Below, one piece after another: positions 17,036-63,790 of a stretch of DNA of 64,000 nt. Position numbers and translations under genes: made by a program. Source of the stretch: Strigamia acuminata. Its lineage: Eukaryota > Arthropoda > Chilopoda > Geophilomorpha > Linotaeniidae. Every line of letters begins with the position of its first letter. The first letter of the stretch is position 1. The DNA is taken from NCBI GenBank assembly GCA_949358305.1, contig OX442321.1:6163605-6227604 (forward strand). The letters run 5' to 3'. The notes under the pieces were generated by a model that had not been told where the DNA came from, searched no databases, and saw nothing but the letters and a program-made list of their open reading frames with translations.

Positions 17036-17669
17036 ATGTACGGTCAAGACATTAGGATAAATAGCAAAAGATTCCCAAATTTAAAAAAACAAAAACTTAA
17101 TTTATATTGCGATTAAACTAAGAGTTTAGTCGCTTTCTTCCTGGCAATGTGCAACCGAATGTATCTAAAAGAAACTGAAATAAGTTGATCTTTTGCTTTT
17201 ATTTCTTGTAAATTATTGTTGACATACATCCTGCATTTAATGAAAAAAATAAAGAAAGAAATAAAGAATTTAATTTATACTAATAACATGAATTAACACT
17301 CAATAAACTTTTAGCACCTGTTCCCATGGTGAGGTGAGACTAAACATTTATGATTCTATTGATTCTTTTGTCTAGTAATTTCCGTTGTCAACCATTCTAT
17401 TCAGCTAAATTGCTACAGTTCTATTCCGGTCACGCTCAGTAAGACATCATTTTAGTTCAGCTAAATTGCTACAGTTCTATTCCGGTCACGCTCAGTAAGA
17501 CATCATTTTAGTTCAGCTAAATTGCTACAGTTCTATTCCGGTCACGCTCAGTAAGACATTATTTTAGTAGCAAAATAACTAAAATTCATTACTGTTATTT
17601 CAATTTTGTCACAAACCATTGTATTTCCACATTGCGACTACAGAAAAATCTAATGTTAAGCACCCCGAA
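17036..17669. other. IR-D upstream region
   Basis: Spacer between the solo LTR and IR-D. Up to about 17,208 it matches the Gr2 upstream region (to 39,912). From about 17,217 to 17,598 it matches 45,303-45,557, and from about 17,603 onward it matches 63,725 onward. This shows that the other unit received two large insertions here. The site equivalent to the TTAA of the giant element reads TTCA at 17599-17602. The region contains a 56-bp triplicate minisatellite. It presumably holds the IR-D promoter, but I see no clear TATA box. Confidence 0.75.
17401..17568. repeat. 56-bp tandem repeat, three copies
   Basis: A 56-bp unit starting TCAGCTAAATTGCTACAG repeats at 17401, 17457 and 17513 with almost no change. 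The homologous locus upstream of the giant insertion (about 45,474-45,526) has one diverged unit, so the expansion is specific to this unit. It lies about 100 bp upstream of the IR-D start codon. Confidence 0.95.
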
Positions 17670-40240: not shown

Positions 40241-41429
40241 TTGGATACAATTGACGACCAAGTGCAACACAACCAGCCAATAAATACTGTTAGAAGTAAG
40301 CAGTTCATATGGGCTCAATTTACATCACTTTGTGTGCACAGAAGTTACCACTTAACTAAAGAAACTTCCTTGACCCAGCTTAATGACATCCTGAAAGACT
40401 GGGCAGGGATCATGAAAAAAACTAATGGAGACGATTATAAGGAAGCTGTAATCAAAACAATGTTCAATACGACAGCCCGAATGCTACAAGAAAAATATGC
40501 CAAAGATTTTGATATTAATTTTAATCCTTTCAACTATGTGCAATTTAAGACCGCTAGAGACGCCAGAGACAGTAAAAAAAAAGAGCTTCAAAAACAAACC
40601 AACAAAAAGAAAATGTAGTGCTGAAGCACTTACGGTTAAAAAAAAAATTAAAATGCAAGAATTTTGGAATGAAAGAAATCCAGATAGTCTTCAAAAGAAA
40701 TTATTTAATATAATGGCAGTTGAATTGGCGTGGAGAGGGGAAGAAGGAGCAACAGCTGAATTAAGTTTTTTCAAAGAAGAAACAAACAATGAAGGAAAAG
40801 TGACCAGACTGATTGAATATAATCCAATTTTTACTAAAACCCAGCAAGGAGGAGCAGCACCATGTGCTTCAAGCAAATGGTTAACACCAAATTTAGGCAA
40901 CCCGAATTTATGCCCTGTCCGACTGTTTAAAAAACTAAAGGAAGCAAGACCAAAAACTATCACAACAAATAGACTTTTCCTAACACCAAATCCGTATTGG
41001 GAAAAGGAATGCACGACAGGTTAAAATATATAATAATCAATAGTATTTAATCAATTACGAATAACAAATTATCATTATTTAGGCTGGTATAAAAATGCAC
41101 CAGCAGGAAAGAATAAAATATCCAAATATCCAAACCAAGCAAACAGCTCAACACGTTGGTTTATCCTGCAAAAAGAAAATAACCAATCACAGTCACCGTG
41201 CAACAGCAGCAATACCGGAACAACAATGATGAAATTAACAAGGCACACTTCTGCTAGCTCAATCCAACCGTAACTACAGATGACCAGCTCTCCGCATGAG
41301 AAATTCATCTCAAAAGTTCGAGATTTGAATACTGAACTGACTCTCACAACAGAAGTGACTACAACAACTTCCAAAAACAAACCAGTATTTAATGACTGCA
41401 CATTTAATGTTCAAAATTTTTATAGATAA
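40241..41429 (+). pseudogene. Decayed Crypton-type (DUF3504-like) recombinase gene
   Basis: The N-terminal part (40,241-40,615) reads MDTIDDQVQHNQ and later WAGIMKKTNGDDYKEAV and LQEKYAKDF, typical of the ZMYM/QRICH1/KCTD1-like family derived from Crypton tyrosine recombinases. A +1 shift in an A-rich run near 40,600-40,614 moves the frame. The next part has LAWRGEEGA, CPVRLFKKL and, across a 63-bp intron (41020-41082, GT/AG, phase kept), GWYKNAPAGKNK. The C-terminal part contains KLTRHTSASSIQP followed by a TAA at 41271 where the family's catalytic tyrosine is expected. Open sequence then runs on to 41,429. The expected G of the TGH motif is R. Almost certainly dead. The family assignment comes from recalled motifs, not a search. 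Confidence 0.7.
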
Positions 41430-42002: not shown

Positions 42003-44666
42003 ATGGCCGACGCGATCTTTGCGGGTTCGTTAAACAGAATTGAGTTGTTGAATGTCCAAAACTATTTCGTCTGGAGTTTTAAAGTCGGGGCGCTACTGGA
42101 GGCGAAAGGCTTGACCAGCGCGTTAACGGATGCGGAACCGAAAAAACCAGTTCAAGGTACACCCAATTTTGCAAACAAAGAGACGGTTTATAAAGCATGG
42201 GCGAAAAGCAACAGCGAGGCGATGGGGATTCTCGCATTAACGATCTCGGATGAAAAGGCGACGAGCTGTTTGGCCATGAAGAGTGCAAAAATATTATGGG
42301 AGCACTTGAAGACACAGCACGCCGCGCTGACTGTGGAAAAACAAGTGCACGTCTCACCACGTTAAAAATGCGTCCGGAAGAAACAGTTGACCAGTATGTC
42401 AACAGGGCAAGGTCAATGCAAGCGAAGGCAAAGGCCGTGGGACGCGATATACCGGATGGCGAGGTAATCTTGTACGCCACAAAAGGTCTGTTGCCGAAAT
42501 ATCACGCCACGGGGCGCAATTATCGTTCGAAGGTAGACGCTAAAATCGAGGATTTGCGCGCAGGTTTATTGACGGAAAAGCAATGGGGGCCCTCCACGAA
42601 CAATTCCACCATGCCAACTCCCATCGCGTTGAAAGCGCAAACGGGAAGAACTCCGGGAGGAAAGAAACCACAAGACCGAAATAAACGGGCATGTTTTGAA
42701 TGTGGCAAGACGGGCCACATAGCCAAGGATTGCTGGGTGCGATTCCCAGAGAAGCGATCCAAGCAGCGAAAAAAAGCTGCAAAGCTCGCGCAGGAAGCGC
42801 CAGCGACGTCACAACAGCACGCATACGTGGCTGTGTGCAGCGACGAAAACAAGACGGCACGCACAGAATTACTACACCATGCATTCGTTGTTGATTTAGG
42901 CGATGATAATATGACCAAGTCCAGATGGATACTGGACTCCGGCGCCTCGTCACACATGTCGTGTCGACGTGAATGGTTTGCGGATTTAGAGGAATTCGAG
43001 GCAACGGTCACGAAAGCTAAACGAGGAACCCAGCTGCTAGCAAAGGGCAGAGGAGACATTACCATTGAGTGCCATCTGCCAGACTCGACGACAAAAAGAA
43101 AAACATTACTGCAAGTTTTGTATGTTCCGGAGTTCAAGGGTAATTTACTTTCGATTCCCAAATTAACGTCCAAAAAATGCAAAGTAGTTTTCAACGACCA
43201 AATGGTGGACGTGCTTGACCCTTCCGGTCAGCTTATCGCACAAGGCAAGAAAAGCGGTGACATGTTCTTTTTGCAAGACGAAAAGAAAGAGAATGCCGTC
43301 GTAGCACAAGGAGCGACGACGCTGACAGAAAAGGAGTTGTGGCACGCACGTTTTTGTCACGTAAATGAAGAAACGTTGGACGAGATGCGAACACGCGAAG
43401 CGGTGTATGGAGTGAAGTATAAAGACCAAAAATTGTCAAAATGTGGGCCATGTATTGGTGGGAAAATGGCAAGATCGCTTTTTAAGCGGGTAAAAAGAAA
43501 ACAATCCCAGAAAATTTTGGAGCTGATCCACGCGGATTTGGTGGGACCGTTTCAAGTCCCGTCCTTGTCTGGGTCAAAATATGCACCACCACCAAGGCTT
43601 GCACACCGGTGGTGGTGGGGCAAGACCTCGATGTTTTTGAAGACTCAAAGAGCGTCGACCAACGAGCGTATCAGCGGATTTTGGGTTCCGTGATTGTGGA
43701 AACTGGTGGTTTCCAAAGTGAACCAGTTTAATTATGTTTTTTACCACCGTGGCGCAAGTGGAAAAGTTCACTTGTGACCCGGATCTATATTCTTGGAATT
43801 TAGGGATTAACTTAATCCTCTTGTTTTATATATCTAAAATTTTGAATAAAAACTCACTGTCTTTTCAAATGTAAACCTGTCTACATCATTTCTCGAGTAC
43901 GCAACAATCAACCTGAATCCGACTCCATCCGTCGTTTTAAACCGTTTTAAGTTAAATCATTTTATACAAGTTGCGTGTGCAACGTTATAGTGATGCACTT
44001 GATGGTCATCACAAGGCCGGATCTTTCATTTGCAGTGAGCAAACTCTCATCATATTCGAGAGACCCGCGCGAGATCCATTTTCGTGCGATGAAACGCGTT
44101 TTAAGCTACGTAAAGCGGACGAGGGACTTCAAGCTATTTTTCCCGTCTACAAGCGGAAGCGTCGTTGGTTTCTCGGATGCGAGCTGGTGCTCCACGAAAC
44201 AAGCAAGATCCTTCTCAGGAATTTTGATCAAGCTGGGAGAAGCGTCGATTTATTGGAAAACCAAAAAACAGCACCTTGTGGCACTCTCTTCATGCGAGAG
44301 TGAGGTTCTCGCCATGTGCGAGCTCCTCAAAGGACTCAAATGGGTACGGAGTATCCTTCACGGACTCGGCCAAGGAGCATCCCAATCTTCACCGATAGTA
44401 CGGCCGCGATGGACGTACTGAACGGATCCAATCAGTTTGGAAGGACCAAGCACATTAACAGACAATTAATGTTTGTTCGACAAGATGTCTACTTGGGCAA
44501 TATCCATCTGGTCCACATGCCCTCGGAGATTTTGACCGCCGATTTCCCCACGAAGGCGGTTCTGGCGGAGAAATTGGCAGCGAGTTGCGAAGCGGTCGCG
44601 CTTAAGGACTACACAGAGATGGAGAAGAAACCAAAGGAAGAGTCGGAGAAGATAAAGCGAAAATAA
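42003..44666 (+). pseudogene. Copia gag-pol remnant
   Basis: The gag ATG at 42,003 opens MADAIFAGSLNRIELLNV. An in-frame TTG lies further up at 41,874. The frame shifts by one near 42,340. It continues with a CCHC knuckle (CFECGKTGHIAKDC, about 42,694), the protease active-site motif WILDSGASSHMS (about 42,928), the pre-integrase HxxxH/CxxC region (LWHARFCHVNEE, KCGPCIGGKM) and the first strand of the integrase core (HADLVGPF, about 43,530). Coding is lost near 43,584 and resumes near 43,985 with TRPDLSFAVSKLS and RNase H (GFSDASW, LSSCESEV). After another shift near 44,370-44,395 come TDSTAAMDVL and HMPSEILTADF. Reverse transcriptase catalytic motifs are absent. Confidence 0.88.
43584..43984. 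other. Non-copia filler at the internal deletion
   Basis: About 400 bp replacing the integrase core and reverse transcriptase. It opens with an imperfect hairpin (CACCACCACC / GGTGGTGGTG, 43,585-43,616) and then becomes AT-rich without coding signs. Its origin is not recognised; it could be a filler inserted during repair or part of another element. Confidence 0.5.
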
Positions 44667-45190: not shown

Positions 45191-45770
45191 ACAACTCGTG
45201 CTTGAGTAAGTGTGGAGCACTCGTGATCTTATCAGGCATTCGTGCTGACCTAATTATCCTGACAATTACACGTTGCGCTTGGTATATTGCCTATAAAAAT
45301 TTTTGTTGATAGACATTTAATGAAAAAATAAAGAAATAAAGAATTTAATTGATACTAATAACATGAATTAAACGCAATAAACTTTTACCAATACGAAGAA
45401 AATGATTTGTTCCCATGGTGAGGTGAGACTATTGATTCTTTTGTCTAGTAATTTCCGTTGTCAACCATTCTATTCAGCTAAGTTGCTACAGTCTTTCTGG
45501 TCACGGCCAGTAAGACATCATTTTAGTAGCAAAACCACTAAAATTCATTACTGTTATTTAACCTTGGGGTATGTGTGCGGATTTTGTCGGGGGCGAAAGG
45601 GTCCCGCTTTTTAACATTACGGCGGCCTATACGTTGTTTCGTTGATCGCGACTGTGATGCGGAATTTGCGGATGTTGTTTTGGCCGAGTAGTTCGTGCGA
45701 CCGAGCGCGTTTTGTTCGTTGCTTTTCGGTGTTCGGTGGGTTTTGTGACCGGTCAAGGGTTTCGCTAAAA

Positions 45771-46011
45771 CGTGGTTTTTGTGACGGGAGGGAGGGGGGA
45801 TCGGTTCATGTGCTCCGAACGCGCCGCGACGCGCCGTGACTTGGGCCAAAAACGACCCGGTCGGAAACCGGGTCCCGGGCTTCGTCGAGGCGTGGTTTTT
45901 GAGAACGGGGGGAGGGGGGGATCGGGTCGCGTGCTCCGAAAGCGCCGCGACGCGCCGTGACTTGGGCCAAAAACGACCCGGTCGGAAACCGGGTCCCGGG
46001 CTTCGTCGAGG
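45771..46011. repeat. 120-bp direct repeat at the left end
   Basis: Two tandem units starting CGTGGTTTTT (45,771 and 45,891) contain G-rich runs and the string AAACGACCCGGTCGGAAACC. The start of a third unit is at 46,012. Related sequence recurs inverted or direct in all modules of the block. Confidence 0.85.
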
Positions 46012-46017
46012 CGTGGT

Positions 46018-46540
46018 CCCGATCGGGACAAACTCTTCCGGAAAATGTCCGGTGGAATGTTGAGAGTGTCGATGGACGACGTTCGAGTTTATATCGTAAG
46101 TAAGTAAGTATCTGACAAAACTTGCACAGAATTTTGTCAACATTTGATAAATTTCCACAGAATTTAACGTTGTTTTGCTAAAACCTGCGGAAACGTGTCT
46201 AGTCGGGCAGAAACGTCTCGTAAAATGTTGCTGAAATTCCGTGGAAATTTGTCAAAAATTGACAAAAGTTGGTGACCGACCCACATCGCGTTGCGGCGCG
46301 GTCGGAGCACGCGACCCGATCCCCCCCCCCCCCCCCTCCCCCCGTCCCCAAAAAACCACGCCTCGAGGAACCCCGAGGTTCGGTTTCCGACCGGGTCGCC
46401 TCTTGATCCGACTCGGGGCGCGTCACGGCGCGGTCGGAGGACGGCCCTCGCCCCCAAAAACCACACTCCGGGTCACGTGGTCTCGCACTCGACTTTTTCA
46501 GTTTTCCCGTTTTCGGCCCGTTACGGCCAAGGACCGTAAC
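46018..46540. repeat. Left inverted subterminal arm
   Basis: Segments 46,030-46,092, 46,195-46,320 and 46,345-46,540 reappear as reverse complements, in mirrored order, at 63,592-63,654, 63,040-63,165 and 62,850-63,030. The shared strings include CGGACATTTTCCGGAAGAG. A C16 run lies at 46,321-46,336. Confidence 0.85.
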
Positions 46541-47335
46541 GGGTCGAAAACGGGCCGCAACGGGTCGAAAACGGCCGCAACGGGTCGAAAACGGCCCGCA
46601 CGGGCCGTTAACGGGCCGCCGACGGTCCCGTCACAATCCCGTAACGGCTCGCACGGGCCGTTAACGGGCCGCCGACGGTCCCGTCACGATCCCGTAACGG
46701 CTCGCACGGGCCGTTAACGGGCCGCCGACGGTTCCGTAACTATCCCGTAACGGCCCGCACGGGCCGTTAACGGGCCGCCGACGATCCCGTCACGACCCCG
46801 TAACGGCCCGTACGACCTCATGCGGGCCGTTAACGGGCCGTTAACGGGCCGTTAACGGCCCGTTAACGGCGTAAAACCAAAAACAGGATTCGAGATTAAT
46901 GTCTATGAATGTTGTACGCGTTTTCATGTACGTGTTGTCGGTTGTTGATTTTTTCGATTTACACCGTCACGGCCCGTTAACGGCCCGTTAACGGCCCGTT
47001 AACGGCCCGTTACGATCCCGTAACGGCCCGCACGGGCCGTTAACGGGCCGCCGACGGTCCCGTCACGATCCCGTAACGGCCCGCACGGGCCGTTAACGGG
47101 CCGCCGACGGTCCCGTCACGGTCCCGTAACGGCTCGCACGGGCCGTTAACGGGCCGCCGACGGTCCCGTCACGGTCCCGTAACGGCCTTCGTTCCCGGAC
47201 TTCGGCTCGCCGACGGCCCGTGCGACCTCATGCGGGCCGCTAACGGGCCGTCAACGGGCCGTTAACGGCCCGTTTTCGACCCGCTACGGCCCGTCACGGC
47301 CTGTTGGCCGTGCGACCCGTGACTCGGAGTGTGGT
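46495..47335. repeat. Palindromic satellite array 1
   Basis: Built of 53-bp units (GGGCCGTTAACGGGCCGCCG then ACGGTCCCGTCACGATCCCG then TAACGGCTCGCAC) and 11-bp units CGGCCCGTTAA. The invariant centre is the palindrome CCGTTAACGG. One copy of the ~95-bp AT-richer core lies at about 46,870-46,962. Confidence 0.92.
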
Positions 47336-49075
47336 TTTTGGGGACGAGGGCCGTCCTCCGGCCGCGCCGCGACGCGCCGCGGGTCGGACAAGAAACGACC
47401 CGGTCGGAAACCGAACCTCAGTGTCCAATCGGGCAGAAATTGTGCGAAAGTTTAACCAAAAATGGCCAAAAGTCGGTGCAAGTTTTGCACGCAACAAACG
47501 TCCGATGTGACAGTGCCCATGCGGGTTGGACGTGCATGTGGGCGCGTGTGGGCGCTCGATTTACCGGCCCGTTGGACGAGTTAAACCAAAATTTCCCAAT
47601 ATCTTGCATAAATTTAAAGAAGATTTGACAGATTTCCAGATTTTAAGCGATGTTTTACATAAGTCCGTCCCATTGCTGAAATTCCGTGAAAATTTGTCAA
47701 AAATTGCCAAAAGTCGGTGCAAATTTTGTCAGAAATAGGAAACAAAAAATTTAAAATTCGTCCAACGCGCCAGTAAATCGAGCGCGCCCATGCGTGGACA
47801 GTGCGCCGGCGGGAGCCCCGGCCGTCCTCTCTCTCTCTCTCTCTCGGCCGCCAAGGCTCGCCCCTCCGCCCGTCGGCGGGAGCCCCGACCGTCCCCCCTC
47901 TCTCTTTCGGCCGCCAAAGGATCGCCCCTCCGCTCGTCACAGATTTTTGTCAATATTTGATGAATTTCAACAGATTTTCAGCAATATTTTACAGGACATT
48001 TCTGCTCTTTTGGATACATTTTCAAAGGTTTTATTGCTAAAATTCTGGGGAAATTTATCAAATATTGACAAAAAATCGATGCAAGTTTTGTCAGAAATTG
48101 ATAAAATCTTCTTAAACTCGTCCAACGCGCCGGCGAGTGCACATGCGGGGACAGTGGGCACGTCCAGCCCGCGTGCACACTGTCAGATCGGGCGGTTTCG
48201 GGCACAGTTTGATCCGGGCAAATATCTAGCAAAACTTGCACCGATTTTTTGTCAATTTTAGACAAATTTCAGCGATATTTTACGAGACATTTCTGCTCGA
48301 TTGGACACATTTCCAGGGGTTTTTTGTAAAACATTGATAAAATTCCGTGGAAATTTATCAAATATTGGCAAAATTCGGTGCTAATTTTGTCAAAAATTAG
48401 GAAAAAAAAATTTTCAAAACTTGTCCAACGTGCCGGTAAATCGAGCGCCCACATGCCTAGATAGTGCACGCCCAACCCGCCAAGGCTCGCCCCTCCGCCC
48501 GTTGGCGGGAGCCCCGGCCGTCCCCTCTCTCTCTCTTTCTCTCTCTCTCTCGGGCGCCCGGAGCTCGCCCCTCCGCCCGTCACCGACTTTTGACACAATT
48601 TTTGATGAAATTCAACGGAATTTTAGCAACGTTTTACAAAAAACCTGTGGAAATGTGTCCAACCGGGCAGAAATGTGTCGTAAAATGTTGCCGAAATTCT
48701 GTGAAAATTTGTCACAAATTGCCAAAAGTCGGTGCAAGTATTGCTAGATTTGGGCGCATCAAACTGTGCCGAGATCTGACAGTGTCCACGCGGTTTTGAA
48801 GCGCCCACTGTCGACGCACGTGGGCGCTCAATTTACCGGCGCGTTGGACGAGTTTTGAAAAAAGTTTTTTCCTAATTTCTGACAAAACTTGCACCGAATT
48901 TTGTCAATATGTGATAAATTTCCATGGATTTTAAGCAATGTTTTACAGAAGTCCGTCCCATCGGGCAGAAACGTCTCGTAAAATGTCGCTGAAATTCCGT
49001 GAAAATCTGTCAAAAATTGACAAAAGTTGGTGACCGACCCGCGGCGCGTCACGGCGCGGTCGGAGGACGGCCCTC
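47335..49075. repeat. Module block 1
   Basis: Mosaic of short pieces in both orientations: GTCCAACGCGCC with GTAAATCGAGCGC, CGGGCAGAAATGTCTCG, AATTTGTCAAAAATTGACAA, and CCCCTCCGCCCGTCGGCGGG followed by CT microsatellites (for example at 47,826). One unit of the 1,015-bp type spans about 47,730-48,740. The ORFs here are low-complexity Arg/Pro/Ser strings and are not considered genes. Confidence 0.85.
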
Positions 49076-49129
49076 GTCCCCAAAAACCACACTCCGGGTC
49101 ACGTGGTCTCGCACTCGACTTTTTCAGTT

Positions 49130-50035
49130 TTCCCGTTTTCGGCCCGTTACGGCCAAGGACCGTAACGGGTCGAAAACGGGCCGCAACGGGTCGAAAACGG
49201 CCGCAACGGGTCGAAAACGGCCGCAACGGGTCGAAAACGGCCCGCACGGGCCGTTAACGGGCCGCCGACGGTCCCGTCACAATCCCGTAACGGCTCGCAC
49301 GGGCCGTTAACGGGCCGCCGACGGTCCCGTCACGATCCCGTAACGGCTCGCACGGGCCGTTAACGGGCCGCCGACGGTTCCGTAACTATCCCGTAACGGC
49401 CCGCACGGGCCGTTAACGGGCCGCCGACGGTCCCGTCACGACCCCGTAACGGCCCGTACGACCTCATGCGGGCCGTTAACGGGCCGTTAACGGGCCGTTA
49501 ACGGGCCGTTAACGGCCCGTTAACGGCGTAAAACCAAAAACAGGATTCGAGATTAATGTCTATGAATGTTGTACGCGTTTTCATGTACGTGTTGTCGGTT
49601 GTTGATTTTTTCGATTTACACCGTCACGGCCCGTTAACGGCCCGTTAACGGCCCGTTAACGGCCCGTCAACGGCCCGCATGGGGTCGCACGGGCCGTTAA
49701 CGGGCCGCCGACGGTCCCGTCACGATCCCGTAACGGCCCGCACGGGCCGTTAACGGGCCGCCGACGGTCCCGTCACGATTCCGTAACGGCTCGCACGGGC
49801 CGTTAACGGGCCGCCGACGGTCCCGTCACGATCCCGTAACGGCTCGCACGGGCCGTTAACGGGCCGCCGACGGTCCCGTCACGGTCCCGTAACGGCCTTC
49901 GTTCCCGGACTTCGGCTCGCCGACGGCCCGTGCGACCTCATGCGGGCCGCTAACGGGCCGTCAACGGGCCGTTAACGGCCCGTTTTCGACCCGCTACGGC
50001 CCGTCACGGCCTGTTGGCCGTGCGACCCGTGACTC
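49130..50035. repeat. Palindromic satellite array 2
   Basis: Same units as array 1, with one core at about 49,528-49,620. Bases 49,875-51,440 repeat 47,165-48,730 at offset 2,710, showing duplication of array plus module together. Confidence 0.92.
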
Positions 50036-53000
50036 GGAGTGTGGTTTTTGGGGACGAGGGCCGTCCTCCGGCCGCGCCGCGACGCGCCGCGGGTCGGACA
50101 AGAAACGACCCGGTCGGAAACCGAACCTCAGTGTCCAATCGGGCAGAAATTGTGCGGAAGTTTAACCAAAAATGGCCAAAAGTCGGTGCAAGTTTTGCAC
50201 GCAACAAACGTCCGATGTGACAGTGCCCATGCGGGTTGGACGTGCATGTGGGCGCGTGTGGGCGCTCGATTTACCGGCCCGTTGGACGAGTTAAACCAAA
50301 ATTTCCCAATATCTTGCATAAATTTAAAGAAGATTTGACAGATTTCCAGATTTTAAGCGATGTTTTACATAAGTCCGTCCCATTGCTGAAATTCCGTGAA
50401 AATTTGTCAAAAATTGACAAAAGTCTGTGCAAATTTTGTCAGAAATAGGAAACAAAAAATTTAAAATTCGTCCAACGCGCCAGTAAATCGAGCGCGCCCA
50501 TGCGTGGACAGTGCGCCGGCGGGAGCCCCGGCCGTCCTCTCTCTCTCTCTCTCTCGGCCGCCAAGGCTCGCCCCTCCGCCCGTCGGCGGGAGCCCCGACC
50601 GTCCCCCCTCTCTCTTTCGGCCGCCAAAGGATCGCCCCTCCGCTCGTCACAGATTTTTGTCAATATTTGATGAATTTCAACAGATTTTCAGCAATATTTT
50701 ACAGGACATTTCTGCTCTTTTGGATACATTTTCAAAGGTTTTATTGCTAAAATTCTGGGGAAATTTATCAAAAATTGACAAAAAATCGATGCAAGTTTTG
50801 TCAGAAACTGATAAAATCTTCTTAAACTCGTCCAACGCGCCGGCGAGTGCACATGCGGGGACAGTGGGCACGTCCAGCCCGCGTGCACACTGTCAGATCG
50901 GGCGGTTTCGGGCACAGTTTGATCCGGGCAAATATCTAGCAAAACTTGCACCGATTTTTTGTCAATTTTAGACAAATTTCAGCGATATTTTACGAGACAT
51001 TTCTGCTCGATTGGACACATTTCCAGGGGTTTTTTGTAAAACATTGATAAAATTCCGTGGAAATTTATCAAATATTGGCAAAATTCGGTGCTAATTTTGT
51101 CAAAAATTAGGAAAAAAAAATTTTCAAAACTTGTCCAACGTGCCGGTAAATCGAGCGCCCACATGCCTAGATAGTGCACGCCCAACCCGCCAAGGCTCGC
51201 CCCTCCGCCCGTTGGCGGGAGCCCCGGCCGTCCCCTCTCTCTCTCTTTCTCTCTCTCTCTCGGGCGCCCGGAGCTCGCCCCTCCGCCCGTCACCGACTTT
51301 TGACACAATTTTTGATGAAATTCAACGGAATTTTAGCAACGTTTTACAAAAAACCTGTGGAAATGTGTCCAACCGGGCAGAAATGTGTCGTAAAATGTTG
51401 CCGAAATTCTGTGAAAATTTGTCACAAATTGCCAAAAGTCGGTGCAAATTTTGTCAGAAATAGGAAACAAAAAATTTAAAATTCGTCCAACGCGCCAGTA
51501 AATCGAGCGCGCCCATGCGTGGACAGTGCGCCGGCGGGAGCCCCGGCCGTCCTCTCTCTCTCTCTCTCTCGGCCGCCAAGGCTCGCCCCTCCGCCCGTCG
51601 GCGGGAGCCCCGACCGTCCCCCCTCTCTCTTTCGGCCGCCAAAGGATCGCCCCTCCGCTCGTCACAGATTTTTGTCAATATTTGATGAATTTCAACAGAT
51701 TTTCAGCAATATTTTACAGGACATTTCTGCTCTTTTGGATACATTTTCAAAGGTTTTATTGCTAAAATTCTGGGGAAATTTATCAAATATTGACAAAAAA
51801 TCGATGCAAGTTTTGTCAGAAATTGATAAAATCTTCTTAAACTCGTCCAACGCGCCGGCGAGTGCACATGCGGGGACAGTGGGCACGTCCAGCCCGCGTG
51901 CACACTGTCAGATCGGGCGGTTTCGGGCACAGTTTGATCCGGGCAAATATCTAGCAAAACTTGCACCGATTTTTTGTCAATTTTAGACAAATTTCAGCGA
52001 TATTTTACGAGACATTTCTGCTCGATTGGACACATTTCCAGGGGTTTTTTGTAAAACATTGATAAAATTCCGTGGAAATTTATCAAATATTGGCAAAATT
52101 CGGTGCTAATTTTGTCAAAAATTAGGAAAAAAAAATTTTCAAAACTTGTCCAACGTGCCGGTAAATCGAGCGCCCACATGCCTAGATAGTGCACGCCCAA
52201 CCCGCCAAGGCTCGCCCCTCCGCCCGTTGGCGGGAGCCCCGGCCGTCCCCTCTCTCTCTCTTTCTCTCTCTCTCTCGGGCGCCCGGAGCTCGCCCCTCCG
52301 CCCGTCACCGACTTTTGACACAATTTTTGATGAAATTCAACGGAATTTTAGCAACGTTTTACAAAAAACCTGTGGAAATGTGTCCAACCGGGCAGAAATG
52401 TGTCGTAAAATGTTGCCGAAATTCTGTGAAAATTTGTCACAAATTGCCAAAAGTCGGTGCAAATTTTGTCAGAAATAGGAAACAAAAAATTTAAAATTCG
52501 TCCAACGCGCCAGTAAATCGAGCGCGCCCATGCGTGGACAGTGCGCCGGCGGGAGCCCCGGCCGTCCTCTCTCTCTCTCTCTCTCGGCCGCCAAGGCTCG
52601 CCCCTCCGCCCGTCGGCGGGAGCCCCGACCGTCCCCCCTCTCTCTTTCGGCCGCCAAAGGATCGCCCCTCCGCTCGTCACAGATTTTTGTCAATATTTGA
52701 TGAATTTCAACAGATTTTCAGCAATATTTTACAGGACATTTCTGCTCTTTTGGATACATTTTCAAAGGTTTTATTGCTAAAATTCTGGGGAAATTTATCA
52801 AATATTGACAAAAAATCGATGCAAGTTTTGTCAGAAATTGATAAAATCTTCTTAAACTCGTCCAACGCGCCGGCGAGTGCACATGCGGGGACAGTGGGCA
52901 CGTCCAGCCCGCGTGCACACTGTCAGATCGGGCGGTTTCGGGCACAGTTTGATCCGGGCAAATATCTAGCAAAACTTGCACCGATTTTTTGTCAATTTTA

Positions 53001-53815
53001 GACAAATTTCAGCGATATTTTACGAGACATTTCTGCTCGATTGGACACATTTCCAGGGGTTTTTTGTAAAACATTGATAAAATTCCGTGGAAATTTATCA
53101 AATATTGGCAAAATTCGGTGCTAATTTTGTCAAAAATTAGGAAAAAAAAATTTTCAAAACTTGTCCAACGTGCCGGTAAATCGAGCGCCCACATGCCTAG
53201 ATAGTGCACGCCCAACCCGCCAAGGCTCGCCCCTCCGCCCGTCGGCGGGAGCCCCGGCCGTCCCCTCTCTCTCTCTTTCTCTCTCTCTCTCGGGCGCCCG
53301 GAGCTCGCCCCTCCGCCCGTCACCGACTTTTGACACAATTTTTGATGAAATTCAACGGAATTTTAGCAACGTTTTACAAAAAACCTGTGGAAATGTGTCC
53401 AACCGGGCAGAAATGTGTCGTAAAATGTTGCCGAAATTCTGTGAAAATTTGTCACAAATTGCCAAAAGTCGGTGCAAGTATTGCTAGATTTGGGCGCATC
53501 AAACTGTGCCGAGATCTGACAGTGTCCACGCGGTTTTGAAGCGCCCACTGTCGACGCACGTGGGCGCTCAATTTACCGGCGCGTTGGACGAGTTTTGAAA
53601 AAAGTTTTTTCCTAATTTCTGACAAAACTTGCACCGAATTTTGTCAATATGTGATAAATTTCCATGGATTTTAAGCAATGTTTTACAGAAGTCCGTCCCA
53701 TCGGGCAGAAACGTCTCGTAAAATGTCGCTGAAATTCCGTGAAAATCTGTCAAAAATTGACAAAAGTTGGTGACCGACCCGCGGCGCGTCACGGCGCGGT
53801 CGGAGGACGGCCCTC
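50035..53815. repeat. Module block 2 with 1,015-bp tandem triplication
   Basis: Three head-to-tail copies of a 1,015-bp unit lie between about 50,440 and 53,480, nearly identical. Each contains two CT-rich segments and the GTCCAACGCGCC motif. Downstream of the last copy, 53,460-54,230 repeats 48,720-49,490 at offset 4,740. Confidence 0.9.
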
Positions 53816-53869
53816 GTCCCCAAAAACCACACTCCGGGTCACGTGGTCTCGCACTCGACTTTTTCAGTT

Positions 53870-56800
53870 TTCCCGTTTTCGGCCCGTTACGGCCAAGGAC
53901 CGTAACGGGTCGAAAACGGGCCGCAACGGGTCGAAAACGGCCGCAACGGGTCGAAAACGGCCGCAACGGGTCGAAAACGGCCCGCACGGGCCGTTAACGG
54001 GCCGCCGACGGTCCCGTCACAATCCCGTAACGGCTCGCACGGGCCGTTAACGGGCCGCCGACGGTCCCGTCACGATCCCGTAACGGCTCGCACGGGCCGT
54101 TAACGGGCCGCCGACGGTTCCGTAACTATCCCGTAACGGCCCGCACGGGCCGTTAACGGGCCGCCGACGGTCCCGTCACGACCCCGTAACGGCCCGTACG
54201 ACCTCATGCGGGCCGTTAACGGGCCGTTAACGGGCCGTTAACGGCCCGTTAACGGCGTAAAACCAAAAACAGGATTCGAGATTAATGTCTATGAATGTTG
54301 TACGCGTTTTCATGTACGTGTTGTCGGTTGTTGATTTTTTCGATTTACACCGTCACGGCCCGTTAACGGCCCGTTAACGGCCCGTTAACGGCCCGTCAAC
54401 GGCCCGCATGGGGTCGCACGGGCCGTTAACGGGCCGCCGACGGTCCCGTCACGATCCCGTAACGGCCCGCACGGGCCGTTAACGGGCCGCCGACGGTCCC
54501 GTCACGATCCCGTAACGGCTCGCACGGGCCGTTAACGGGCCGCCGACGGTCCCGTCACGATCCCGTAACGGCTCGCACGGGCCGTTAACGGGCCGCCGAC
54601 GGTCCCGTCACGATCCCGTAACGGCTCGCACGGGCCGTTAACGGGCCGCCGACGGTCCCGTCACGATCCCGTAACGGCCCGTACGACCTCATGCGGGCCG
54701 TTAACGGGCCGTTAACGGGCCGTTAACGGCCCGTTAACGGCGTAAAACCAAAAACAGGATTCGAGATTAATGTCTATGAATGTTGTACGCGTTTTCACGT
54801 ACGTGTTGTCGGTTGTTGATTTTTTCGATTTACGCCGTAACGGCCCGTTAACGGCCCGTTAACGGCCCGTCAACGGCCCGTCAACGGCCCGCAACGGCCC
54901 GCACGGGCCGTTAACGGGCCGTCGACGATCCCGTCACGATCCCGCAACGGCCCGCACGGGCCGTTAACGGGCCGCTGACGGTCCCGTCACGATCCCGTCA
55001 CGGCCTTCGTTCCCGGACTTCGGCTCGCCGACGGCCCGTACGACCTCACGCGGGCCGTTAACGGGCCGTTAACGGCCCGTTAACGGCCCGTTAACGGCGT
55101 AAAACCAAAAACAGGATTCGAGATTAATGTCTATGAATGTTGTACGCGTTTTCATGTACGTGTTGTCGGTTGTTGATTTTTTCGATTCACGCCGTAACGG
55201 CCCGTTAACGGCCCGTTAACGGCCCGTCAACGGCCCGTCAACGGCCCGCAACGGCCCGCACGGGCCGTTAACGGGCCGTCGACGGTCCCGTCACGATCCC
55301 GCAACGGCCCGCACGGGCCGTTAACGGCCCGTTAACGGCCCGTTAACGGCCCGTTAACGGGGCAAAACCGAAAACAGGATTCGAGATTAATGTCTATGAA
55401 TGTTGTACGCGTTTTCACGTACGTGTTGTCGGTTGTTGATTTTTTCGATTTACGCCGTAACGGCCCGTTAACGGCCCGTTAACGGCCCGTCAACGGCCCG
55501 TCAACGGCCCGCAACGGCCCGCACGGGCCGTTAACGGGCCGTCGACGATCCCGTCACGATCCCGCAACGGCCCGCACGGGCCGTTAACGGGCCGCTGACG
55601 GTCCCGTCACGATCCCGTCACGGCCTTCGTTCCCGGACTTCGGCTCGCCGACGGCCCGTACGACCTCACGCGGGCCGTTAACGGGCCGTTAACGGCCCGT
55701 TAACGGCCCGTTAACGGCGTAAAACCAAAAACAGGATTCGAGATTAATGTCTATGAATGTTGTACGCGTTTTCATGTACGTGTTGTCGGTTGTTGATTTT
55801 TTCGATTCACGCCGTAACGGCCCGTTAACGGCCCGTTAACGGCCCGTCAACGGCCCGTCAACGGCCCGCAACGGCCCGCACGGGCCGTTAACGGGCCGTC
55901 GACGGTCCCGTCACGATCCCGCAACGGCCCGCACGGGCCGTTAACGGCCCGTTAACGGGGCAAAACCGAAAACAGGATTCGAGATTAATGTCTATGAATG
56001 TTGTACGCGTTTTCACGTACGTGTTGTCGGTTGTTGATTTTTTCGATTTACGCCGTAACGGCCCGTTAACGGCCCGTTAACGGCCCGTCAACGGCCCGTC
56101 AACGGCCCGCAACGGCCCGCACGGGCCGTTAACGGGCCGTCGACGATCCCGTCACGATCCCGCAACGGCCCGCACGGGCCGTTAACGGGCCGCTGACGGT
56201 CCCGTCACGATCCCGTCACGGCCTTCGTTCCCGGACTTCGGCTCGCCGACGGCCCGTACGACCTCACGCGGGCCGTTAACGGGCCGTTAACGGCCCGTTA
56301 ACGGCCCGTTAACGGCGTAAAACCAAAAACAGGATTCGAGATTAATGTCTATGAATGTTGTACGCGTTTTCATGTACGTGTTGTCGGTTGTTGATTTTTT
56401 CGATTCACGCCGTAACGGCCCGTTAACGGCCCGTTAACGGCCCGTCAACGGCCCGTCAACGGCCCGCAACGGCCCGCACGGGCCGTTAACGGGCCGTCGA
56501 CGATCCCGTCACGATCCCGCAACGGCCCGCACGGGCCGTTAACGGGCCGCTGACGGTCCCGTCACGATCCCGCAACGGCCCGCACGGGCCGTTAACGGGC
56601 CGTCGACGATCCCGTCACGATCCCGCAACGGCCCGCACGGGCCGTTAACGGGCCGCTGACGGTCCCGTCACGATCCCGCAACGGCCCGCACGGGCCGTTA
56701 ACGGGCCGTCGACGGTCCCGTCACGATCCCGCAACGGCCCGCACGGGCCGTTAACGGCCCGTTAACGGCCCGTTAACGGCCCGTTAACGGGGCAAAACCG

Positions 56801-57240
56801 AAAACAGGATTCGAGATTAATGTCTATGAATGTTGTACGCGTTTTCATGTACGTGTTGTCGGTTGTTGATTTTTTCGATTCACGCCGTAACGGCCCGTTA
56901 ACGGCCCGTTAACGGCCCGTTAACGGCCCGTCAACGGCCCGCATGGGGTCGTACGGGCCGTTAACGGGCCGCCGACGGTCCCGTCACGATCCCGTAACGG
57001 CCCGCACGGGCCGTTAACGGGCCGCCGACGGTCCCGTCACGGTCCCGTAACGGCCTTCGTTCCCGGACTTCGGCTCGCCGACGGCCCGTGCGACCTCATG
57101 CGGGCCGCTAACGGGCCGTCAACGGGCCGTTAACGGGCCGTCAACGGGCCGTTAACGGCCCGTTTTCGACCCGCTACGGCCCGTCACGGCCTGTTGGCCG
57201 TGCGACCCGAAAACGGGAAAACTGAAAGAGTCGAGTGCGA
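53870..57240. repeat. Palindromic satellite array 3
   Basis: The longest array. It holds eight AT-richer cores starting near 54,256, 54,743, 55,100, 55,362, 55,720, 55,960, 56,317 and 56,797. A higher-order repeat of about 600-620 bp with two cores per unit is visible from about 54,838. The orientation of the GGGCC/GGCCC half-units flips just before each core. Confidence 0.92.
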
Positions 57241-57910
57241 GACCACGTGACTCGGAGTGTGGTTTTTGGGGACGAGGGCCGTCCTCCGGCCGCGCCGCGA
57301 CGCGCCGCGGGTCGGACAAGAAACGACCCGGTCGGAAACCGAACCTCAGTGTCCAATCGGGCAGAAATTGTGCGGAAGTTTAACCAAAAATGGCCAAAAG
57401 TCGGTGCAAGTTTTGCACGCAACAAACGTCCGATGTGACAGTGCCCATGCGGATTGGACGTGCATGTGGGCGCGTGTGGGAGCTCGATTTACTGGCGCGT
57501 TGGACGAGTTTTAAAAAAATTCTCCAAAATCTGACAAAACTTGCAACGATTTTTAACGACATTTAATTGATTTCCACAGATTTTAAGAACACTGTTTTAC
57601 AGAAGCCCGTCCAATCGGGCAGAAATGTCTCGCAAAATATTGCTGAAATTCCGTGGAAATTTATCAAAAATCGTTGCCAGTTTTGTCAGATTTTGGAGAA
57701 TTTTTTTAGAACTCGTCCAACGCGCCAGTAAATCACGCGCCCACGTGCGTGGACGATGCGCACGTCCAACCCGCCAAGGCTCGCCCCTACGACCGTCGGC
57801 GGGAGCCCCGGCCGTCCTCTCTCTCCCTCTCGGCCGCCAATGCTCGCCCCTCCGCCCGGGACTCGCCCCGCCGCCAGTCACCGACTTTTGGCAATTTCCT
57901 TGCAAACAGC
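57240..57910. repeat. Module block 3
   Basis: A single, diverged module (GTCCAACGCGCC, CGGGCAGAAATG, CT microsatellite near 57,820). It ends at the non-repetitive island. Confidence 0.8.
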
Positions 57911-59790
57911 AACGATAATGATGTATTTATTGATAATTGTTTTTGCATCGGACATGTGTTTAATTTTAGTGGTTCCTCGACTCAGTTTGTGCGGTTCTTG
58001 CGCGTCGTGCGCACGTTCAACACGCGCCCACGCGAGTATATCGCGTGGACTCTCGTCTCTCTCGTCAGTCTCGATGTTTTGTATGATTTTATTTTGCTAA
58101 TTGTTTTGAGCGCGTGCAATTTCAATTGTTGCACCACACACGCATTTTCTATTGTACACCAGTGTTCCTATGTCGAATAAATTAGACTTGTTTTTAATTT
58201 CTCTGTCGCCATTGTTTGAATTCACTGCGCTGCACGAGAGCTTCAATTTATGAGTTGGACCGCTTTTTATACAAATTATGTGGGAATTTTGCTCGATTCA
58301 TGCGCGGTTCTTTCTTAAGCGTCGGGCAAGTTTTGTCAGATATTGCAAAAAGTACATCGCGCGTGCACGGGCGTGCGTGGACGGTGCCCGCGTCCAACGC
58401 TCATCGGCGTCCAACTCCTTGTCTACAAAGAAGGTCGGGGTTTCGGGCATATCCTTTGCCACGACCGCGTCTTGGTTCTCGCCTTCGGTGGTCATCTCCA
58501 AGGCGGGAATCAGCCCGGATTTCAACGGGGTGCTGTCGGTCAGAAAGGGAACGGTCGGTGTTGTTGGGGAGATGTTGGAGCAGTACTAAACGTCATGTTT
58601 TGTTCACGTGAAAATGAAATGTGCGTTTAAAAAGCCTATCGTGCTGCCGGGACGTTTATTAATTTTCCCAGTTTGACATAAGCGAGCGCGCACATGGCGA
58701 CGGCAATGTCTTTTGTCACCTTTAAATTCCTTTTTGGTTTCAACTATGTAAGTTACCTTGTTTTATTAAAATAACTGTTAGTTTTGTATATTTGCTAGTT
58801 GGTTCATGTTTGGTGCGTTAGATATAAACACCAAACCACCGTATTTATGTTTTCTGAGACGTACGACGCGAGTCGCGCTCGTACGCCGACTTCGACACAT
58901 CGGTAAACCGCCAGCGTGCACCATTTTTCTCGTGCTCACTCAGACGTGCGCATTACACGCGATATTGCGCACGAACGCGCACACCGCCTCCGCGACACAC
59001 ATCACACACCCGTTTAAACGAGTCTCGGCGCCTATTTGACCCCAGTGTTTACTTTTTAAAATTGTGGTGTGTTTTCAAAGTTCTTAATTTGTTCAAAAAC
59101 AAACAAAATGGATATCTGTTGATTTTTAAATGATTTTGTCGATTTAGTTTTTTGCTGGTTTTTAATCGATTTGTCTGTATTTTTAATCAATTCGAATGAT
59201 TGACACCATTCTGTGCTTTACTCGTATTCAAGATGGCGTCGCAAACTCAAGGTCGAATTCCGCTGAATTCATTTATTGCGACTGTTTGCGCTCCATACGT
59301 GCGAAAAGGATTATGGGAATAATCCTCAATGCAGGCCATTTTGGTGTTAAATGAGCGAGGAAGGCAGGACATAAGGAAAATTGGTGAAATGTAAAAAAAA
59401 ATGCTAAACAATCAACATTTAAATAAAGATCAATATTTCTGGCTCGAAATGCATATATCGGCAATTTCGGGATATTTTCGGGACGAAATTGACTCGTTCG
59501 GAACACAGGGGAGGGACTCCCACATTCCCCATGCGTCGGCGCGTGTGTTTACGAAATACCAAATCCAGGTTTTCATACAACCCCACGTTATTTTCGGGTC
59601 AAGAGTTTTTTTATGCGCTGCCGCGCGCAATCCCCGGGTTGATGAGTTTCGCGGAATCCGACGAGCGAGTGCGATCGTGTCATACCGCTTCTTCTCGTGG
59701 CAAAGTAGACACCTTAATTAAACTGGCTGTTGGCTTTTTTTTTTAAACAAAGTACGAGTCTTTAAGTTGAACGGTTGTTGAGATACACGT
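57911..59790. other. Non-repetitive island inside the macro-element
   Basis: About 1.9 kb that is not satellite or module sequence and is less GC-rich in its second half. An open stretch to 58,180 and another ending VRKGTVGVVGEMLEQY at 58,585 exist, but I recognise no protein. Short possible first exons start at 58,694 (MATAMSFVTFKF, with a GTAAGT donor at 58,748) and 59,233 (MASQTQGRIPLN). AATAAA occurs at 58,176. It could be captured host DNA or the remains of the element's own gene. Nothing here supports a function. Confidence 0.5.
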
Positions 59791-59794
59791 AGTA

Positions 59795-60060
59795 ATGTGG
59801 ACTCGCGACGCGTTGCAACGTGGTCGGAGAACGGCCCACTTCCCTCCCCCCGACCAGGTTGTCTTTCTCTCTCTTGTCCGACCCACGGCGCGTCGCGGCG
59901 CGGCCGGAGGACGTCTCTTTCCCCTCCCCCAGTCCCAAAAACCACACCTTGAGGAACCCCGAGGTTCGGTTTCCGACCGGGCCGTTTCTCGCCCGACCCA
60001 CGACGCGCCGCGGCGCGGCCGGAGGACGGCCCTCGTCCCCAAAAACCACACTCCGGGTCA
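59795..60060. repeat. Module fragment 4
   Basis: Fragment with GCGCGGCCGGAGGACG and AAAACCACAC strings, in the same orientation as the segment before array 2, leading directly into array 4. Confidence 0.75.
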
Positions 60061-60064
60061 CGTG

Positions 60065-62870
60065 GTCTCGCACTCGACTTTTTCAGTTTTCCCGTTTTCG
60101 GCCCGTTACGGCCAAGGACCGTAACGGGTCGAAAACGGCCGCAACGGGTCGAAAACGGCCCGCACGGGCCGTTAACGGGCCGCCGACGGTCCCGTCACAA
60201 TCCCGTAACGGCTCGCACGGGCCGTTAACGGGCCGCCGACGGTCCCGTCACGATCCCGTAACGGCTCGCACGGGCCGTTAACGGGCCGCCGACGGTTCCG
60301 TAACTATCCCGTAACGGCCCGCACGGGCCGTTAACGGGCCGTCGACGGTCCCGTCACGATCCCGCAACGGCCCGCACGGGCCGTTAACGGCCCGTTAACG
60401 GCCCGTTAACGGCCCGTTAACGGGGCAAAACCGAAAACAGGATTCGAGATTAATGTCTATGAATGTTGTACGCGTTTTCACGTACGTGTTGTCGGTTGTT
60501 GATTTTTTCGATTTACGCCGTAACGGCCCGTTAACGGCCCGTTAACGGCCCGTCAACGGCCCGTCAACGGCCCGCAACGGCCCGCACGGGCCGTTAACGG
60601 GCCGTCGACGATCCCGTCACGATCCCGCAACGGCCCGCACGGGCCGTTAACGGGCCGCTGACGGTCCCGTCACGATCCCGTCACGGCCTTCGTTCCCGGA
60701 CTTCGGCTCGCCGACGGCCCGTACGACCTCACGCGGGCCGTTAACGGGCCGTTAACGGCCCGTTAACGGCCCGTTAACGGCGTAAAACCAAAAACAGGAT
60801 TCGAGATTAATGTCTATGAATGTTGTACGCGTTTTCATGTACGTGTTGTCGGTTGTTGATTTTTTCGATTCACGCCGTAACGGCCCGTTAACGGCCCGTT
60901 AACGGCCCGTCAACGGCCCGTCAACGGCCCGCAACGGCCCGCACGGGCCGTTAACGGGCCGTCGACGATCCCGTCACGATCCCGCAACGGCCCGCACGGG
61001 CCGTTAACGGGCCGCTGACGGTCCCGTCACGATCCCGCAACGGCCCGCACGGGCCGTTAACGGGCCGTCGACGATCCCGTCACGATCCCGCAACGGCCCG
61101 CACGGGCCGTTAACGGGCCGCTGACGGTCCCGTCACGATCCCGCAACGGCCCGCACGGGCCGTTAACGGGCCGTCGACGGTCCCGTCACGATCCCGCAAC
61201 GGCCCGCACGGGCCGTTAACGGCCCGTTAACGGCCCGTTAACGGCCCGTTAACGGGGCAAAACCGAAAACAGGATTCGAGATTAATGTCTATGAATGTTG
61301 TACGCGTTTTCACGTACGTGTTGTCGGTTGTTGATTTTTTCGATTTACGCCGTAACGGCCCGTTAACGGCCCGTTAACGGCCCGTCAACGGCCCGTCAAC
61401 GGCCCGCAACGGCCCGCACGGGCCGTTAACGGGCCGTCGACGATCCCGTCACGATCCCGCAACGGCCCGCACGGGCCGTTAACGGGCCGCTGACGGTCCC
61501 GTCACGATCCCGTCACGGCCTTCGTTCCCGGACTTCGGCTCGCCGACGGCCCGTACGACCTCACGCGGGCCGTTAACGGGCCGTTAACGGCCCGTTAACG
61601 GCCCGTTAACGGCGTAAAACCAAAAACAGGATTCGAGATTAATGTCTATGAATGTTGTACGCGTTTTCATGTACGTGTTGTCGGTTGTTGATTTTTTCGA
61701 TTCACGCCGTAACGGCCCGTTAACGGCCCGTCAACGGCCCGTCAACGGCCCGTCAACGGCCCGCAACGGCCCGCACGGGCCGTTAACGGGCCGTCGACGA
61801 TCCCGTCACGATCCCGCAACGGCCCGCACGGGCCGTTAACGGGCCGCTGACGGTCCCGTCACGATCCCGCAACGGCCCGCACGGGCCGTTAACGGGCCGT
61901 CGACGATCCCGTCACGATCCCGCAACGGCCCGCACGGGCCGTTAACGGGCCGCTGACGGTCCCGTCACGATCCCGCAACGGCCCGCACGGGCCGTTAACG
62001 GGCCGTCGACGGTCCCGTCACGATCCCGCAACGGCCCGCACGGGCCGTTAACGGCCCGTTAACGGCCCGTTAACGGCCCGTTAACGGCCCGTTAACGGCC
62101 CGTTAACGGGGCAAAACCGAAAACAGGATTCGAGATTAATGTCTATGAATGTTGTACGCGTTTTCATGTACGTGTTGTCGGTTGTTGATTTTTTCGATTC
62201 ACGCCGTAACGGCCCGTTAACGGCCCGTTAACGGCCCGTCAACGGCCCGTCAACGGCCCGCAACGGCCCGCACGGGCCGTTAACGGGCCGTCGACGATCC
62301 CGTCACGATCCCGCAACGGCCCGCACGGGCCGTTAACGGGCCGCCGACGGTCCCGTCACGGTCCCGTCACGGCGCGTGCGGGCCGTTAACGGGCCGCCGA
62401 CAGTCCCGTCACGATCCCGTCACGGCCTTCGTTCCCGGACTTCGGCTCGCCGACGGCCCGTACGACCTCACGCGGGCCGTTAACGGGCCGTTAACGGGCC
62501 GTTAACGGCCCGTTAACGGCCCGTTAACGGCGTAAAACCAAAAACAGGATTCGAGATTAATGTCTATGAATGTTGTACGCGTTTTCACGTACGTGTTGTC
62601 GGTTGTTGATTTTTTCGATTTACGCCGTTAACGGCCCGTTAACGGCCCGTTAACGGCCCGTCAACGGCCCGCATGGAGTCGTACGGGCCGTTAACGGGCC
62701 GCCGACGGTCCCGTCACGGTCCCGTCACGGCGCGTGCGGGCCGTTAACGGGCCGCCAACGGTCCCGTCACGATCCCGTCACGGCCCGTGCGGGCCGTTAA
62801 CGGGCCGCCGACGGTCCCGTCACGATCCCGTAACGGCCCGTTACGGCCAAGGGCCGTAACGGGATAACTG
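60065..62870. repeat. Palindromic satellite array 4
   Basis: Six cores start near 60,425, 60,782, 61,258, 61,613, 62,111 and 62,532. Same 53-bp and 11-bp units. Several blocks are close copies of array 3 blocks, showing homogenisation across the island. Confidence 0.92.
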
Positions 62871-63660
62871 AGAGAGTCGGGTGCGAGACCACGTGACCCG
62901 GAGTGTGGTTTTTGGGGGCGAGGGCCGTCCTCCGACCGCGCCGTGACGCGCCCCGGGTCGGATCAAGAGGCGACCCGGTCGGAAACCGAACCTCGGGGTT
63001 CCTCGGGGCGTGGTTTTTTGGGGACGGGGGGAGGGGGGGATTGGGTCGCGTGCTCCGACCGCGCCGCAACGCGCCGTGGGTCGGTCACCAACCTTTGTCA
63101 ATATTTTATAAATTTCCACGGAATTTCAACAATGTTTTACATAAGTCCGTCAAATCGGGCAGAAATATCCCGTACAATGTCGCTGCAATTCTGTGGAAAT
63201 TTATCAGATATTGACAAAATTCGGTGACGGGCGGAAGGGCGATTCCCGGGCGGAAGAGAGAGAGAGAGAGAGAAAGGGGGGACGGCCGGCGCCTACGCCG
63301 ACGGGGCGCGGAGGGCGAGTGCACTGTTCACGCATGTGGGCGCGTGTGGACGCTCGATTTACTGGCGCGTTGGACAAGTCAAAAAAAATTTCCCAATGTC
63401 TGACAAAAATTCCATCGAATCACGGCAATATTTGACAACACTTGCACAGATTTTTAGCAACATTCACCGGCGAGGTCGTTGATGAACTCGCTTTACCCCG
63501 ATGAATCTCGCGCGACAACAACCCTGCGAAAATACCAAATCTCGTACGAATAATAAACACGGCGCAAACCGCACAAAAATCCACGACATAAAATCGAATG
63601 TCGTCTATCGGCACTCTCAGCATTCCCCCGGACATTTTCCGGAAGAGTTTGGTCCGGCCG
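62850..63660. repeat. Right inverted subterminal arm
   Basis: Reverse-complement partner of 46,018-46,540, made longer by an inserted module (63,165-63,580) with an AG microsatellite at about 63,255-63,275. Confidence 0.85.
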
Positions 63661-63790
63661 GAATCCGAGGAATAGTCACTCCCAAAGTGCGGATTTTGCG
63701 GGTGCACTCGCTTCCGAAGGTTAAATTTCGCCACAAACCATTGTATTTCCACATTGCAACTACAGAAAATCTAATATTAAGGACTCCAAA

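Follow-up and report, generated by a model that had tools for sequence, protein, structure and literature searches.

The 64,000-nucleotide stretch of Strigamia acuminata DNA analysed here (contig OX442321.1, positions 6,163,605 to 6,227,604; hereafter the window) contains an 18,159-bp block bounded by TTAA, and we conclude, with a probability of about 0.88, that the block belongs to a young family of giant DNA transposons of piggyBac type, as a member that is non-autonomous and lacks genes. We found termini shared with copies elsewhere in the genome, TTAA beside them, two empty sites, a transposase gene inside larger relatives with the same ends, near-identical copies, and a 48-49-kb composite present at two sites. 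Such giant transposons appear to disperse satellite DNA through the genome, which bears on the open question of how satellite DNA gets into gene-rich regions.

A preliminary description of the window had reported TTAA on both sides of the block and an uninterrupted paralogous site, and both observations were confirmed. When the flanks were joined with one TTAA, they matched window positions 17,512-17,809 locally, being identical at 269 of 289 aligned bases; the alignment contains four small gaps (9 bases), all at least 41 bp from the junction, and none at the junction itself. The two ends form an imperfect terminal inverted repeat, a match expected with a chance of 0.006 among random 17-mers of the element, and judged from its sequence the subterminal motif GTGCGGATTTTG, shared by both ends, is a possible transposase binding repeat. 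The block has a GC content of 0.558 and a CpG observed/expected ratio of 1.58, against 0.344 and 0.94 in the 45.6 kb to its left. Its description as non-coding holds as far as tested, in that seven of its nine stop-to-stop open reading frames (ORFs) of at least 150 amino acids gave no Pfam match at E 0.1; the other two, at 51,480-51,986 and 52,495-53,001, closely resemble one of the seven.

The ends were then used to search the genome (237.5 Mb, 157 contigs), where other copies sharing both termini and TTAA were found, as the preliminary description had supposed they might be. The right-end 16-mer occurs exactly 191 times (reversed control, 0), and the left end with TTAA, at up to two mismatches, 252 times (control, 8). 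The sequence just beyond TTAA was distinct in all 30 right ends read, these being the first listed of the 57 that lie directly at TTAA; two of the right ends (L048 and L053) are located in copies of a single paralogous sequence, 115 bp from each other, and the flanks of three (L043, L049 and L056) have repeat pieces in common further out. The first 30 left ends listed include 9, 5 and 7 in three recurrent internal contexts, designated (a), (b) and (c), which number 46, 16 and 95 in the genome; two others share the element's own interior, and seven have flanks that are unique among the fetched loci, save for one 74% match. Identity to the window copy averages 98.4% in the first 300 bp of the left end (35 distinct places; minimum 94.3%, 18 identical). 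For the last 300 bp of the right end, at 30 distinct places, the mean is 99.1% (minimum 90.1%, 18 identical). Given this high identity the family looks young, and copies so nearly identical suggest a recent burst, so that individuals can be compared for polymorphic insertions.

The second empty site belongs to a 42.6-kb block at C1:47,090,322-47,132,952, in which three left-to-right units stand at one TTAA. Its joined flanks match an uninterrupted paralog at 260 of 265 positions, gapless and with TTAA intact, a result that fits both arrival of the block whole and later growth and cannot tell the two apart. An ordinary satellite array, or a segmental duplication ending at TTAA by chance, would be in keeping with an interior that is largely satellite and itself rich in TTAA, but the boundaries of the block are non-satellite arms that are near-identical among copies and lie beside different flanks, and the two precise empty sites contradict such an origin, which we regard as very improbable. 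Chance occurrence of TTAA at the block ends is ruled out by the copy number together with the empty sites.

The preliminary description had also raised the possibility of a piggyBac-like transposase with similar termini, and one was found inside larger relatives with the same ends. Three ORF pieces on contig C5 match the Pfam domain PF13843 in order, at profile positions 32-148, 193-248 and 253-341, the third alone just below the cut-off; joined with two more exons at GT-AG introns they encode 562 amino acids with no internal stop, and the spliced protein matches PF13843 over positions 32-348 with 191 bits (E 4.8e-56). A candidate start exon lies upstream. The relatives of solved structure are piggyBac (6x67, E 3.9e-18) and piggyBat (9c0f, E 2e-13), and the three catalytic aspartates of piggyBac, in the numbering of its aspartate triad (DDD), have counterparts in the alignment. 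With eleven database proteins that are 25-53% identical to the transposase, D224, D313 and D425 are invariant in 12 of 12 aligned sequences, as are C519, C522, C536, C539, C544 and C552 of a C-terminal Cys-rich domain; the C-terminal region also matches the piggyBat tail weakly, and N428 replaces the partner in piggyBac's last aspartate pair, one position further on. The transposase copy on contig C2 differs from that on C5 at none of the 562 residues, and a 27-base word from a transposase exon occurs 55 times in the genome, always exactly (control, 0). PF13843 is thus present in gene-bearing relatives with the same ends and absent from the scanned ORFs of the window copy, and we infer that the transposase acts on the window copy in trans.

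Kolobok is another superfamily that uses TTAA, and membership in it would account for the TTAA duplication. However, the transposase of the full-size relatives is of piggyBac type (PF13843, 191 bits), and both ends start with CCTT, which fits the CCYT with which piggyBac-superfamily ends begin (PMC10175614). A Kolobok origin is therefore hardly credible, and we dropped it because the transposase in elements with these ends is a PF13843 protein.

The gene-bearing elements, which have the same ends at TTAA, lie at C5:13,803,870-13,851,631 (47.8 kb) and C2:56,217-105,485 (49.3 kb), and most of the inner 39 kb of the former and 2.5 kb of the latter were read. Each consists of an outer left end at TTAA, 8.4 kb (C5) or 8.9 kb (C2), an internal left end in context (a), a further 39.3 or 40.3 kb, and a right end at TTAA; the transposase word lies 20.7 or 21.1 kb past the internal left end, and the outer flanks of the two elements differ. 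Since one composite is found at two different TTAA sites, a stretch of about 48 kb was moved as a unit. At C1:31,811,873 a left end with its own distinct flanks lies 21.1 kb away from a transposase word at C1:31,790,734, which suggests movement of the inner part of the gene-bearing element by itself as well. The gene-bearing elements also contain other gene-like stretches (L073, 633-1,568 on the minus strand, and L074), with coiled-coil or low-complexity ORFs and apparent introns, neither of which gave a Pfam match above cut-off. A 202-amino-acid ORF from a gene-bearing element had no relative at E 0.001 among 79 candidates, and ARAGORN found no tRNA in L073.

Complete single-unit copies with both shared ends measure 3,728, 4,427, 6,181, 9,320 and, in the window, 18,159 bp, which bears out the expectation of shorter copies. 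The four shorter ones have at least about 1.25 kb of the left end and at least about 1 kb of the right end in common and differ in their middles, the 3.7-kb copy being an exception on the left, where it is rearranged within the arm. A 17.2-kb copy on C4, of which 8,001 of 17,176 bp were read, carries modules of the window copy at 97-99.7% in a different order. Modules are common to copies and yet reordered, so the satellites rearrange too.

The preliminary description had left open whether the block moved as such or was built up inside a small element after insertion. Movement as a block is well supported for the two 48-49-kb relatives; for the window copy both may contribute, given that its modules are reordered elsewhere. 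That a small TTAA element inserted and the 18 kb were then built up in place by tandem duplication would agree with an interior made mostly of tandem arrays of 53, 357 and 1,015 bp, with single units elsewhere that start at 3.7 kb, and with a module order that varies among copies. Against this, modules of 3-4 kb from the window recur in other copies at 96.5-99.7% and so either predate the insertion or came by conversion, and the two relatives, alike in architecture though located at different sites, must each have moved as a whole. We therefore consider build-up in place an unlikely, though not negligible, account: with modules both shared and shuffled, the window copy is probably not a mere in-place growth of a short element, and repeat numbers may have changed within it where it stands.

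Units of the family also occur joined. Context (c) proved to be a fixed join in which exactly 62 bp separate a right end from the TTAA of the next left end; this held at all 48 places checked by position (of 95), with ATAG following the right end in 7 of 7 read. At C1:57,578,263-57,629,898 there is a head-to-tail array of 12 units. The outer ends of a 30.8-kb block at C1:9,062,005-9,092,764 are two right ends, inverted and each at TTAA, possibly the result of a right-right transposition. On C115, five right ends followed by TTAT lie partly mirrored between 5,668 and 211,049, which suggests that this contig is duplicated or partly palindromic.

A way in which the family could move is proposed here, its mobility being read throughout from sequence. 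The transposase from the 48-kb elements would most likely bind the ends that they share with the gene-less copies. Everything between one left and one right end, whether a unit of 4 or 18 kb or a concatemer spanning tens of kb, would be excised and pasted into a new TTAA. The gene-less copies may have originated by internal deletion, which would have joined satellite-rich left and right arms without the genes, and the satellites would then expand, contract and swap modules through recombination between copies. Contexts (a), (b) and (c) could reflect nested or adjacent insertion, after which the joined block was copied.

On balance we favour, with less assurance, the broader proposal that this is a self-mobile giant arthropod piggyBac. 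It would measure about 48-49 kb, carry an intron-bearing transposase of its own and several other, still nameless genes, and have burst to dozens of copies; satellite DNA, as single units and as concatemers with 62-bp linkers, would be moved by it into TTAA across contigs in blocks reaching at least 49 kb. If true, this would be a cut-and-paste route that seeds macrosatellites in euchromatin, and a non-viral counterpart of the fish element Teratorn. The route is testable, because the carrier, the likely enzyme, the target and two empty sites are present in one assembly.

Several observations weigh against a piggyBac-type family that includes the window copy. The inverted repeat at the termini is short and matches at only 11 of 17 positions, and the TTAA of the window copy is TTCA in the paralogous empty site, as had been noted earlier. 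Only 57 of the 191 right ends lie directly at TTAA; about 95, a number derived from the left-end count of context (c), lie at the internal ATAG linker, and the others listed are followed by TTAT (12), ATAA (3), CTAA (1) or tetranucleotides that differ from TTAA at two positions. Off-target insertion or recombination may explain some of these, and possibly also the 6.2-kb copy (L071, C1:2,355,900-2,362,300), in which ATAT precedes the left end and TTAA follows the right, so that the duplication is not clean. No empty site for the 49.3-kb C2 element was found among the fetched loci, where only its right flank matched another. The PF13843 evidence comes from gene-bearing loci, and a different TTAA transposase may exist elsewhere in the genome.

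By its transposase and its use of TTAA the family is within the piggyBac superfamily, and with Trichoplusia piggyBac and piggyBat it has in common the TTAA duplication, ends that start with CCTT and are asymmetric, and a DDD transposase of PF13843 with a C-terminal Cys-rich domain. Terminal inverted repeats in the superfamily are about 12-19 bp long. In piggyBac the ends are asymmetric and include an internal repeat bound by the Cys-rich domain (PMC7351741), and autointegration and single-ended products have been documented (PMC3952818). New in this family, relative to the superfamily, are its size, spliced genes, satellite arms and concatemers. The piggyBacs of Apoidea measure 1.37-3.52 kb, with one table row down to 368 bp, and have a single ORF (PMC10140906), whereas the gene-bearing elements here measure 47.8-49.3 kb and have several introns, other gene-like stretches, satellite arms and concatemers. 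As a natural arthropod piggyBac-type element this is thus far larger than the 1.4-3.5 kb of the bee survey.

Giant piggyBacs are known from fish in the form of Teratorn, a herpesvirus fusion measuring 41-182 kb. Like the present family it is a giant of the piggyBac superfamily, stands at TTAA and contains its ends in further, internal copies; in these sources Teratorn-like viruses are reported from teleosts only (PMC6431247, PMC10175614). Given the giant size, the piggyBac-type transposase and the internal end copies, and a gene-bearing cargo known only in part, it was reasonable to consider that the family is a similar virus-transposon fusion and the window copy its gene-less remnant. However, only the transposase scored above the Pfam cut-off among 20 ORF pieces scanned from gene-bearing loci, none of which was a herpesvirus gene; the transposase gene has introns; and viral contigs gave 62 pattern matches to the transposase, none of them confirmed. 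We consider a viral fusion improbable. Unlike Teratorn, the family has prominent satellite arms and many gene-less copies, and in the pieces tested it is a giant transposon whose cargo so far shows no viral gene.

Pokey of Daphnia, also of the piggyBac superfamily, has a non-coding arm with length-variable tandem repeats from the ribosomal DNA (rDNA) spacer, and resembles the present family in its variable tandem repeats, its non-autonomous derivatives and some tandem insertions at TTAA (PMC3849761). Pokey uses a specific 28S rDNA site among others and has derivatives of about 750 bp (PMC3849761), whereas single gene-less units here measure 3.7-18.2 kb. A Pokey-like 28S rDNA site was not encountered: a scan of the whole 64-kb window against Rfam gave no hit that reached the gathering cut-off, rRNA included, and the 30 right flanks read all differ.

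Helitrons and miniature inverted-repeat transposable elements (MITEs) with internal tandem repeats are known, and like satellite-bearing transposons in general the present family disperses tandem repeats. Here, in contrast, the carrier is a cut-and-paste, TTAA-specific element, and the blocks measure 4-49 kb. MITEs are short, under about 1 kb, and the gene-less copies of this family exceed that size. In the open-access literature searched for giant or satellite-carrying insect piggyBacs we found no description of this family, and a term search of a survey of beetle piggyBacs yields neither 'giant' nor 'longest' (PMC12732532).

The interior of the window copy contains tandem units of 53, 11, 357 and 1,015 bp (Table 1). 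The left arm that it shares with L073 runs on there into gene-like sequence with a coiled-coil ORF. Five gene-bearing loci together cover 10,458 of the 18,159 bp, and one transposase-bearing piece (L079) shares no sequence with the window copy. In the satellite region (46,534-62,848) TTAA is about 2.5 times commoner than predicted from dinucleotide content, and 169 of the element's 229 TTAA lie within the palindrome CCGTTAACGG of the satellite unit. A left end directly after GCCGTTAA, as would arise if satellite TTAA served as landing pads, occurs nowhere in the genome, but these satellite sites make up little of the TTAA present in the genome, so that few such insertions are expected and the zero count is uninformative on avoidance.

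Table 1. Features of the element and its empty site (window positions)
Feature	Position	Strand	Remarks
Whole element	45562..63720	+	18,159 bp, single left-end-to-right-end unit; exact left-end and right-end words once each in the window
Left TTAA (target-site duplication)	45558..45561	.	sequence at boundary
Right TTAA (target-site duplication)	63721..63724	.	sequence at boundary
Left imperfect terminal inverted repeat	45562..45578	+	starts CCTT; 11/17 positions match right end
Right imperfect terminal inverted repeat	63704..63720	-	starts CCTT on minus strand
Subterminal motif GTGCGGATTTTG near left end	45575..45586	+	read directly
GTGCGGATTTTG near right end, direct orientation	63687..63698	+	read directly
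Paralogous uninterrupted site (TTCA)	17594..17617	+	alignment with joined flanks
Conserved left arm	45562..46526	+	965 bp at 99.7% to left arm of locus L073
Satellite array 1, 53-bp/11-bp, GC-rich	46534..47274	+	many units carry CCGTTAACGG
Satellite array 2	49160..49984	+	
Tandem 1,015-bp units	50383..53477	+	99.6% alike
Satellite array 3, 357/485-bp higher-order units	53900..57195	+	
Less repetitive module	57347..59875	+	present in copies L071 and L084 at a different element position
Satellite array 4	60119..62848	+	
Right arm	60155..63720	+	97.65% over 3,578 aligned columns to right arm of gene-bearing 47.8-kb element (L075)

The neighbourhood of the element contains two 324-amino-acid ORFs, at 15,243-16,217 and 37,804-38,778 on the minus strand, that match the 7tm_7 chemosensory receptor family (E 1.1e-6, above the cut-off, and E 1e-5, just below it). 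They are spaced 22,561 bp apart, which is also the offset of two 18-bp repeats at 10,665 and 33,226, and given this equal offset a tandem segmental duplication would be the source of the empty site in the window. At 40,452-41,024, an ORF of 190 amino acids matches DUF3504 below the threshold (E 0.009). An ORF with copia-type gag-pol domains (zf-CCHC, gag_pre-integrs, Pol_BBD) is located at 42,254-43,693, past the second receptor copy and before the element, and was perhaps inserted later than the segmental duplication.

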